This document shows positions 6,013 through 22,289 of a stretch of DNA of 22,289 nucleotides, in pieces. Made by a program: the position numbers and the translations under genes. Under the pieces are notes generated by a model. That model was not told where the DNA came from and did no database searches. It saw only the letters and a program-made list of their open reading frames with translations. The stretch comes from a virus. The first letter of the stretch is position 1. The number at the start of each line of letters is the position of its first letter. The stretch spans positions 1-22,289 of IMG/VR virus record IMGVR_UViG_3300020166_000125. One strand, 5' to 3'.

Positions 6013-8172
6013 TTAATTTAGTCGTCCTTTATTAGGTGTATCAATCATTGCTTTAGCCTCTTCACCTTTTTGCTTCACATAAGGATTGTTACCTACACGT
6101 TTGTCGTTTTCTAAGCCTTCGTTAGGTAAGAACCTTCCTTTATTATTCTTTTTTCTAAAGTATATTCTTCTAAGCCAACCATGGTGGCAATTAACGCCTC
6201 CTTTGTATTTGAACAAATTATAGGTATTTTTTCCTTTTGGAGCAAATTCTGAGTTTATGCCGTCTTTACCCATTTTGATAATATCCTCATACCGGTACTC
6301 TATTCCGCTTGATGATAATTCTATCATTCTACTACAGAAACGTCTTGAGGATGATTTAGACTCTTTTCTAGAAGTCTTAGAATAAACATATCTTACCTTA
6401 TATAAACCAGTGTCTCCCCATCTAGACTTTTCATCTGGATTAGCATCTGATTTTGTAGGATTAGCGAATTGGTGAAAACCATCCTTAGTAGTATCAACCT
6501 CTTCTTCACTTATTAATTCCCATTCATCATTATCGTTTTCTTCTCCAACTAATTCTAAGTAGTCTAACAGATCATCGCCTTGATCATCTGATAAAAAAGG
6601 TCTTTCGTCTTTAAAGTTAGAAGAACATTCACATTTACCTTTTTTCTTTTTACAACCAGGTTTACATTTATAAAAGTCTTCTTCTACATTCTTTATTTCT
6701 TCTACCTTTCTTTTTGACCAAGTAAACCCAGCGTCTCCACCCCAAAGTAGCCAAGCTATTTTACCAGCACTTGGGTAGCCATCGTCTCCTACTTTGTAGC
6801 CTTGTCCTCCTTTAGTAGATTTCTCATGTCTGCTAAAAAATGAGTACATTCTTTTGATAGTACTTAAGCTTAAATTTTTACCGTTAGATATATCTCTAGC
6901 TCTAGCAACTCCAACAGCAGTACCTCCTCTACCAAACTCTCTTCTTAGTTCCAGTCCTCTCTTAGCCTCAGAGATCATTCCACTAGTTGGCTTAGTATCT
7001 ATGTCTTTTAAGTCTTTGAATTCACTAAACTCACTGTATTGATCAATCCCAGTCTCTATCTCTTTCTCATCAGCATCAAGACCTTCGGTTTCTATAAATT
7101 CTATTGGTTGTAAAGTCTTAAAGTATGTGTTTAAAATAATACCGTTAACAAGCAGCACTTCGTTTATAGCATCAAGTATCATATTTTGATATGGCCGTAT
7201 AACTGTGTTGTCCCATAATTGAGAAGCAGTCTTTATTTCGTCAGCGTTGTTTCCTAAACCTGTGCTGTCTTTTATACCAAACAAAATAGGACTAGTTACT
7301 TTGTGACCTATTAAGATCTTACGTGTAGCCTCTTCGCTTAAAAACTTGTATTGTTCACTAGCTTCTGATATTGGTAAACTATCAATAGTAGTTGCGTTTG
7401 TAGTATCATCGTTAAATGATATAAGCCACTTTTTACCTTTAGTACCTTGAAGCTTTTGCATCACTTTATTCTCGATATGATTTTGCTCATCTTCAGTTGG
7501 TTGACCATTGTTGAAGTTGATCATCATCGTAGGAGCGAAGCCATTTTGAATATTAGATAAATGGTATGTACCAATTTCTTCGTCTATCTCTGCCCATTGC
7601 AAACATCCAGCGTAATCAACAGGTGAAAAGTAAAAGTAACCTGAAGCATAAGGTTTTATAACCAATACTTGCGATGTATCTCCTTTTTCACCAGTAAACG
7701 TTTCGATGCGTTTAGGTGCATATCTTTCTTTTCTATATTGACTCCAATCATCGGAGTAGTAGTATGCCTGGATTTCACCTTCTATAGATTTCTCAGGCCT
7801 TAAGTTTTGCATAGGTATATGCTTTGCCTTAAGTATTTGAGTTCTACCTTTATTCCAAACAATGTTAAACGCACCTTGACCTAATAACTTAAGATCATGA
7901 GATACACGCTTTAAATCGTTTGGTTTAAATATAGTCTTCATCTTAGCGTGATCTAAAGGCTTTTTGTTTTCGTCAGTACACGATAAACCTTCACCATATA
8001 TTTGATCACTAACAGAAGATATAATTGCGTTGTTCACAGCACTACCATTGTATCTGTCAATCAAATACTCAAAGTAGTTATTGTCATCACCGTAAGATAC
8101 CCACTCCTTAGAGTTAGACTCTTTTGCTTTTGGTGATTTCTCAGCCGCTAAATTTATTATTCTTAAGCTCAT
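6013..8172 (-). CDS. Portal protein with fused C-terminal domains
   Basis: The 719-aa protein has three parts. Residues 1 to about 360 look like a phage portal: VNNAIISSVSDQIYGEGL, LLGQGAFNIVWNKG, HIPMQNLRPE, then TRKILIGHKVTSPILFGI and the helical LWDNTVIRPYQNMILDAINE. Residues 397-492 hold a domain with EFGRGGTAVGVARARD and GYPSAGKIAWLLWGGDAG, which I know as a module of unknown function in phage head proteins. A Cys cluster (C503, C507, C514, C516) follows. Residues 580-680 have RFCSRMIEL and YKGGVNCHHGWLRRIYFRK, seen in Bacteroidota head proteins. The portal part forms the dodecameric DNA channel. It overlaps the adhesin gene end by 4 nt. Confidence 0.82.
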   Translation of the reverse strand: MSLRIINLAAEKSPKAKESNSKEWVSYGDDNNYFEYLIDRYNGSAVNNAIISSVSDQIYGEGLSCTDENKKPLDHAKMKTIFKPNDLKRVSHDLKLLGQGAFNIVWNKGRTQILKAKHIPMQNLRPEKSIEGEIQAYYYSDDWSQYRKERYAPKRIETFTGEKGDTSQVLVIKPYASGYFYFSPVDYAGCLQWAEIDEEIGTYHLSNIQNGFAPTMMINFNNGQPTEDEQNHIENKVMQKLQGTKGKKWLISFNDDTTNATTIDSLPISEASEQYKFLSEEATRKILIGHKVTSPILFGIKDSTGLGNNADEIKTASQLWDNTVIRPYQNMILDAINEVLLVNGIILNTYFKTLQPIEFIETEGLDADEKEIETGIDQYSEFSEFKDLKDIDTKPTSGMISEAKRGLELRREFGRGGTAVGVARARDISNGKNLSLSTIKRMYSFFSRHEKSTKGGQGYKVGDDGYPSAGKIAWLLWGGDAGFTWSKRKVEEIKNVEEDFYKCKPGCKKKKGKCECSSNFKDERPFLSDDQGDDLLDYLELVGEENDNDEWELISEEEVDTTKDGFHQFANPTKSDANPDEKSRWGDTGLYKVRYVYSKTSRKESKSSSRRFCSRMIELSSSGIEYRYEDIIKMGKDGINSEFAPKGKNTYNLFKYKGGVNCHHGWLRRIYFRKKNNKGRFLPNEGLENDKRVGNNPYVKQKGEEAKAMIDTPNKGRLN

Positions 8173-22115: not shown

Positions 22116-22226
22116 CTGAAAGGAGAGGACTCGAACCTCTACGAAGGGATTAGGCAACTAAGTGCTTTATTTCTTGTCTTCACCCAAGAGACAGTTGGGC
22201 GTGTCTGCCAATTTCACCACCTTTCA
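22116..22226 (-). tRNA. tRNA-like gene, leucine-type body with GTC anticodon
   Basis: The minus strand folds as a cloverleaf: 7-bp acceptor TGAAAGG/CCTTTCA, D arm GTG AAATTGGCAGA CAC, 5-bp anticodon stem CCCAA/TTGGG with loop CTGTCTC, and T arm AGAGG TTCGAGT CCTCT. The discriminator is G and no CCA is encoded. D and T arms look like bacterial tRNA-Leu, but the loop gives anticodon GTC (aspartate). The variable region is 42 nt (22182-22141), longer than the usual 10-24, with possible stems TGAAG/CTTCG and TTAG/CTAA. It may be a rearranged or non-canonical tRNA, or a degraded one. A competing hairpin TGTCT/AGACA overlaps the anticodon stem. Confidence 0.7.
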
Positions 22227-22289
22227 TGTCTTTCTTTACTCCTCGTGATCATAGAAATATTTTGAATAGTAGATATTAACTGCTGCTAC

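Follow-up and report, generated by a model that had tools for sequence, protein, structure and literature searches.

The described tRNAs closest to the RNA reported here fall into several groups. Among class II tRNAs, tRNA-Leu and tRNA-Ser usually have G1-C72 as their first pair, and the SerRS and LeuRS of most bacteria do not read the anticodon. Allo-tRNAs, known mainly from genomes and metagenomes, and tRNA-Sec are noncanonical class II tRNAs whose acceptor branch of 12 or 13 bp is divided differently. The non-proteinogenic tRNA-Gly of staphylococci, which belong to class I, act as cell-wall amino-acid donors. For tRNA-Asp, the aspartate determinants are G73, G34, U35, C36 and C38, with a minor contribution of G2-C71, and the first pair G1-C72 is strictly conserved in bacteria (PMC9976931); U1-A72, by comparison, is the pair that is read by amidotransferases (PMC9976931; PMC4206432).

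We analysed a 22,289-nt stretch of viral DNA (IMG/VR record IMGVR_UViG_3300020166_000125, positions 1 to 22,289; hereafter the window) that contains on its minus strand a 111-nt tRNA-shaped sequence (Table 1). Read directly, this sequence has the first pair U1-A72, the anticodon GUC and the discriminator G73, and all of its stems are perfect (acceptor, 7 bp; D, 3 bp; anticodon, 5 bp; T, 5 bp), which bears out the leucine-type body, aspartate anticodon and discriminator, and intact stems given in a preliminary description. The two small nested stems reported there match features of the family described below, namely the V stem GAAG/CUUC and the distal hairpin GCA/UGC. To these traits we add U37, which is as unusual as any of them. 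The Infernal comparison that had been suggested earlier supported a tRNA: in a cmscan of the local stretch, the Rfam tRNA model RF00005 scored 40.9 bits, where the gathering score is 29, and placed the whole variable region into one insertion. The window tRNA was not called by ARAGORN or by an Rfam scan of the whole window at default filters, and its folding energy was no better than that of shuffled sequences (z −0.08). Because the single-sequence folding energy is unremarkable, the case for this tRNA rests on its relatives. A covariance model (R1) built from 28 long relatives with the window copy excluded, the E-values of which are rough, found the sequence at 101.6 bits (E 6e-26). With R1, tRNAs of ordinary length in the sampled genomes stayed at or below 68 bits and long family copies reached at least 86 bits, and the window tRNA is a significant match as a family member. 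It represents a reduced form, in which the V stem and the AAUAAA/CUAA loop are kept and a three-pair hairpin replaces the inner helix (P2) of longer members. The tRNA-shaped RNA of the window is real; it is not a decayed copy and is not confined to this phage. A 15-codon open reading frame, MKGGEIGRHAQLSLG, can be read in the 5′ half of the tRNA (window 22180–22227, minus strand) with GAGGAG about 13 nt upstream, and is probably due to chance.

Table 1 Parts of the tRNA in the window, with the evidence for each.
Feature	Position	Strand	Description and evidence
Whole tRNA	22116–22226	−	111 nt; CCA not encoded, C74 present; RF00005 40.9 bits, family model R1 101.6 bits
Acceptor stem, 5′ arm UGAAAGG	22220–22226	−	U1-A72 first pair, G2-C71 second; sequence
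Leucine-type D arm GUGAAAUUGGCAGACAC	22201–22217	−	3-bp stem; sequence; resembles phage tRNA-Leu genes; D-stem covariation
Anticodon arm CCCAA-CUGUCUC-UUGGG	22183–22199	−	Sequence; searches with the anticodon left free
Anticodon GUC; U37; C38	22192–22190; 22189; 22188	−	Sequence
Variable region	22141–22182	−	42 nt; sequence; family range 21–130 nt
V stem, 5′ arm GAAG	22178–22181	−	Pairs with CUUC at 22143–22146; V stem covaries in 28 relatives
Distal hairpin GCA-CUUAGU-UGC	22154–22165	−	AAUAAA and CUAA on its flanks; counterpart of the covarying inner helix in long members
T arm AGAGG-UUCGAGU-CCUCU	22124–22140	−	Sequence; T-stem covariation
Acceptor stem, 3′ arm CCUUUCA, and discriminator G73	22116–22123	−	G73 in 285 of 285 members

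Pattern-based searches placed the window tRNA in a large and apparently undescribed family of oversized aspartate-type class II tRNAs in Bacteroidota and their phages. A degenerate pattern of the D arm and anticodon arm gave 14 loci in the viral collection and a looser one 101 stretches, and a similar pattern gave at least 119 loci in bacterial genomes. Altogether we collected at least 285 distinct family sequences, 138 from viral contigs and at least 147 from Bacteroidota chromosomes, and the family is present in more than 150 phage contigs. Among the matches listed, the titles of the chromosomal loci were all from Bacteroidota, comprising Cyclobacteriaceae, Cytophagaceae, Saprospiraceae, Chitinophagaceae, Flammeovirgaceae and some Flavobacteriales. 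R1 found copies of at least 86 bits in 22 of 198 sampled Bacteroidota genomes; of the sampled Cyclobacteriaceae, 31 of 60 matched a strict pattern, which is more stringent than R1, so that absences by it are not firm. The variable region spans 21–102 nt in the collected phage members, some of which have only 21–27 nt, and 39–130 nt in chromosomal ones. Rfam scans of 16 relatives gave no gathering-level match beyond ordinary tRNA, tmRNA and permuted tmRNA, and a scan of one member up to E 5 gave no match for the insert; a search of the open-access literature, a scope outside which most subscription papers lie, found no description of the family. No Rfam family of its own was found for this conserved RNA gene, and its long forms are missed by ARAGORN. 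Tandem copies are common (L202 and other chromosomal loci): a Sporocytophaga MAG has four that are nearly identical, and Algoriphagus has two separated by about 500 nt. The D loop carries an inserted hairpin in 47 distinct viral members (L106–L114, L234–L292 and others) and in no chromosomal one, and 19 of these 47 have in the D region a second GTCTC, the same letters as in the anticodon loop.

Conservation across the collected members is concentrated in the acceptor end and anticodon loop. G73 and G2-C71 occur in 285 of 285 and a C follows the discriminator in all; the first pair is U-A or A-U in 284 of 285, and G1-C72 was never found. C38 is present in 283 of 285, and pyrimidine 37 and U33 in 282 each; the D-loop GG and the UUCRA T loop, both elements of the L shape, are conserved as well. 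C74 was considered as a special signal and dropped, because canonical host tRNA-Asp have it too. The GUC anticodon was recovered when the anticodon was left free. A body pattern with N at positions 34–37 returned GUC at 60 of 60 loci, 59 of them with U37, and two V-domain motifs searched alone returned 83 distinct members, all with GUCUC. Hits of these motifs outside the 83, read by eye, were likewise GUCUC, except for five chance hits in unrelated DNA and two odd copies, one truncated where its contig ends and the other joined or chimeric. Host copies found with R1 were nearly all GUCUC, with three rare exceptions. Two host copies keep UCUC at 35–38: L415 (genome G043) has the loop CGGUCUC and thus G33, and L416 (G172) has the loop CUCUCUC, with anticodon CUC and G34 lost. 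The third, L419 (G078), is an arm-less 76-nt relative with U1-A72, G73 and the loop CUAUCUC, in which the arm may have been lost secondarily, or which may hint at how the family arose. Members with C33, G33, C34 or A34 exist and keep U35, C36, C38 and G73. The exceptions thus indicate that positions 33 and 34 can vary while U35, C36, pyrimidine 37, C38 and G73 stay.

The variable arm of the long members is a conserved folded domain. In 28 diverse long members, the cloverleaf and V helices were paired in 96.5% of cells compared with 80.9% after shuffling, and 144 cells were changed on both sides compared with 34.7; none of 500 shuffles reached any of the five measures used, and slid controls collapsed. 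Covarying changes in the long arm, which the preliminary description had proposed to look for in relatives, are therefore present, and compensatory change also supports the cloverleaf stems, as expected for RF00005. P2 showed double changes in six of its eight pairs, and RNAalifold independently added a further helix of three pairs with 14–17 double changes each. Between P2 and this added helix lies a conserved internal loop, GAUAAAC/GCUAA, and distal to P2 lie a conserved GGGUUGACCAC element and hairpins of variable length. Pairing of the GAUAAAC and GUUGA motifs was suspected and is contradicted by individual members. A failed copy, raised as one possibility in the preliminary description, is rejected by the at least 285 distinct sequences with compensatory changes, and a random insertion, pseudogene or assembly artefact is ruled out because the RNA recurs on independent contigs and covaries. 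An intron in a tRNA-Leu is likewise ruled out, since the anticodon stem is perfect and the insertion lies in the V arm with its own covarying helices.

By fold and model score the window RNA is a tRNA, yet it is not a canonical tRNA-Asp, tRNA-Leu, tRNA-Ser, allo-tRNA or tRNA-Sec. It has all five aspartate determinants, G73, G34, U35, C36 and C38, which are nearly invariant in the family, and the family shares with canonical bacterial tRNA-Asp (class I, GUC) also G2-C71, the 7-bp acceptor stem and the 5-bp T stem. The family differs from canonical tRNA-Asp, alongside which it occurs in the same genomes, in several respects: its first pair is U1-A72 rather than G1-C72, position 37 is a pyrimidine rather than A, the D arm is of leucine type, and the variable region is long (42 nt in the window copy) where class I tRNAs have a short loop. 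The long variable arm and leucine-type D arm are shared with tRNA-Leu and tRNA-Ser, and G73 with tRNA-Ser; the family departs from both in carrying U1-A72, an anticodon of aspartate type and a V domain that has several helices and can reach about 130 nt. The window tRNA has neither the A73 and leucine anticodon of tRNA-Leu nor the serine anticodon and G1-C72 of tRNA-Ser. With the GatCAB substrates tRNA-Asn and tRNA-Gln it shares U1-A72, and the hosts encode GatB; unlike these, the family has the anticodon GUC and a class II body. Allo-tRNAs and tRNA-Sec have a class II body and unusual identity in common with it, but their 8/4, 9/3 or 8/5 acceptor branch is replaced by a normal 7 + 5 branch. 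The staphylococcal non-proteinogenic tRNA-Gly are a functional analogy only, as non-decoding donors, and have no sequence relation to the family. The family also departs from the purine 37 and invariant U33 of elongators. Of the 558 ordinary tRNAs found at the viral loci of the family, 549 carry A or G at 37 and 555 carry U33; the nine with a pyrimidine at 37 include some short family members.

Six hosts were checked: Algoriphagus, Echinicola, Spirosoma, a Cytophagales isolate, a Cyclobacteriaceae MAG and Hymenobacter. All six also encode a canonical class I tRNA-Asp (loop CUGUCAC, G1-C72, A37), and the 22 ordinary tRNA-Asp in the set called by ARAGORN all lacked U1-A72; tRNA-Asn had U1 in 11 of 12 host genomes. 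GatB and a full-length AspRS were found in six of six hosts, as were AsnRS and an AsnB-type asparagine synthetase, and GlnRS exceeded the cut-off in four. Asparagine auxotrophy as the reason for the RNA is weakened by the presence of AsnB in all six. Position 31 of AspRS is Lys in the five host sequences read (G006 was not among them), which matches neither the Leu nor the His that we take to be expected for the discriminating or non-discriminating type. GatB exceeded the cut-off in all 22 sampled genomes that carry the long RNA and in 143 of the 176 that lack it (Fisher p 0.03, a value that ignores phylogeny), being common among the sampled Bacteroidota in general (165 of 198). In the four hosts with both AsnRS and GlnRS, GatCAB looks redundant, a situation that has been discussed for Bdellovibrio (PMC4206432). 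Upstream of 42 of 144 chromosomal copies lies a promoter-like site, TTTG-N(18–22)-TANNTTTG, where shuffling predicts 0.4, and 127 of 144 are followed within 80 nt by a T-run, a raw count with no background rate set. A divergent gene for an Lrp/AsnC-type regulator adjoins 48 chromosomal loci (L115–L233), and other lineages have other neighbours; shared neighbour genes were for this reason dropped as a functional clue.

Judged from the sequences, the family keeps the AspRS determinants and has lost ordinary decoding features. Because the aspartate determinants are kept and position 37 is altered, AspRS recognition appears conserved and decoding relaxed, and this apparent combination favours an aspartate acceptor outside ordinary decoding. 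We tentatively suggest, at somewhat less than even confidence, that the RNA is an aspartate acceptor charged by AspRS, probably a GatCAB substrate, and a poor decoder. The host AspRS would charge the family tRNA with Asp, and GatCAB may convert the carried Asp to Asn; amidation is proposed because the family shares its first pair, U1-A72, with tRNA-Asn and tRNA-Gln, whereas true tRNA-Asp has G1-C72. Pyrimidine 37, the occasional loss of U33 or G34 and the bulky arm would keep the RNA from routine decoding, leaving a dedicated amino-acid carrier that may act as an Asp or Asn donor or in tRNA-dependent Asn synthesis. The V-arm domain could be a handle for a partner protein or complex, and a phage would supply a copy of the host RNA during infection. 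Several observations count against such a carrier. The GatB association is weak and confounded by phylogeny, AsnB and AsnRS in all six hosts mean that Asn supply does not obviously need the RNA, the exceptions at positions 33 and 34 are few, and U1-A72 could instead serve the avoidance of SerRS and LeuRS. The most specific form of the proposal, which we regard as rather unlikely, is that Bacteroidota keep a non-decoding tRNA solely to carry Asp for GatCAB amidation or non-ribosomal Asp/Asn donation, with the V arm as a docking platform, and that phages encode a copy because infection depends on this pathway.

A serious rival to the carrier, if a somewhat unlikely one, is a second tRNA-Asp isoacceptor active in translation, whose large arm would project into the solvent, be tolerated and serve in regulation or stabilisation, and which phages would carry, as they do other tRNAs, to support translation. 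Such an isoacceptor accounts for the retention of all aspartate determinants, the conserved D-loop GG and UUCRA T loop, and U33 in nearly all members; a translational role also fits the position of many phage copies near other tRNAs (another tRNA lies within 1.5 kb of the family member at 85 of 138 viral loci) and the CCA encoded in one member, L010. It is harder to reconcile with pyrimidine 37, found in about 2% of the ordinary tRNAs in the same loci, with the G33, C33, C34 and A34 variants, with the absence of G1-C72 from the family and with the canonical tRNA-Asp that is often also present in host and phage. The long variable arm together with G73, as in tRNA-Ser, and the leucine-type D arm might alternatively mean that SerRS (or LeuRS), neither of which reads the anticodon in most bacteria, charges the RNA, giving a mistranslating tRNA that inserts Ser or Leu at Asp codons. 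We consider this very improbable, as an unread anticodon would leave the near-invariant U35, C36 and C38 unexplained, G73 sets the RNA apart from tRNA-Leu, and U1-A72 differs from the usual first pair of both tRNA-Leu and tRNA-Ser.

The preliminary description had offered roles specific to a phage (a recoding or decoy tRNA, a nuclease-resistant tRNA or a primer), none of which explains chromosomal copies beside a normal tRNA-Asp; with such copies often flanked by a promoter-like site and a T-run, phage-specific readings are insufficient. One of these is a counter-defence tRNA or decoy that would withstand or soak up host anticodon nucleases by means of its altered anticodon loop and oversized arm. 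It has precedent in two reports of phage tRNAs that escape tRNA-targeting defences through changes in the anticodon loop (PMC10264068, PMC11555353), and some phages here carry both a canonical tRNA-Asp and the giant-armed tRNA. The family is, however, chromosomal in many Bacteroidota, and host copies share U37 and the arm, so these features need not stem from phage evasion; we regard a counter-defence role as improbable. A non-tRNA regulatory or structural RNA that has taken over a tRNA fold in order to be processed and stabilised, and that works through its V-arm domain, would agree with the conserved, structured V domain and with the Bacteroidota-type promoter sites and T-runs of the host copies. 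The short V regions of some phage members, the arm-less variant in G078 and the largely kept aspartate determinants make it, in our view, highly unlikely.

Two roles that a single tRNA normally combines seem separated in this family, with synthetase recognition conserved and decoding features not. A dedicated carrier, if real, would help to explain why GatCAB persists beside AsnRS and GlnRS in four of the six hosts checked, and an amidation carrier or amino-acid donor would represent a new non-ribosomal use of aspartyl-tRNA; if the RNA decodes, it reveals how much change the variable arm and position 37 can bear. Either way, the puzzle of the seemingly redundant GatCAB in Bacteroidota becomes testable.

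The nearest relatives of the window copy are found in two viral contigs that carry the same RNA at the same place, next to a protein that is 72% identical; neither relative has a normal tRNA-Leu there. One of their tRNA copies is identical to that of the window and the other, L001, has two differences, both in the loop of the distal hairpin. At the DNA level the downstream gene reaches only 77% identity, yet the 63 comparable nucleotides upstream of the tRNA are 100% identical. Recent exchange may explain part of this conservation, which we do not take as proof of selection. The next-nearest relatives, at 74–77% identity, are the phage copies L043 and L091 and the reduced chromosomal copies L209, L122 and L228, and a blastn search of isolate phages with two relatives of the window tRNA gave no match. 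Genes beside the viral loci gave no functional hint. The phage copy is probably transcribed inside a structural-gene operon. Directly 5′ of the tRNA lies a small open reading frame (MTNVYAMILVVVAVAAVNIYYSKYFYDHEE in L002), at 22229–22289 (minus strand) in the window and about 2750–2844 in L002, to which the identical 63 nt belong. Phage tRNA clusters that include the family RNA (L102:634–855, minus strand; L047; L049) also contain tmRNA genes, including one that is permuted (RF04321). The window further encodes a 719-aa portal protein at 6013–8172 (minus strand); the C-terminal half of this protein matches a different unknown phrog (phrog_2859) and is possibly a fused extra domain.
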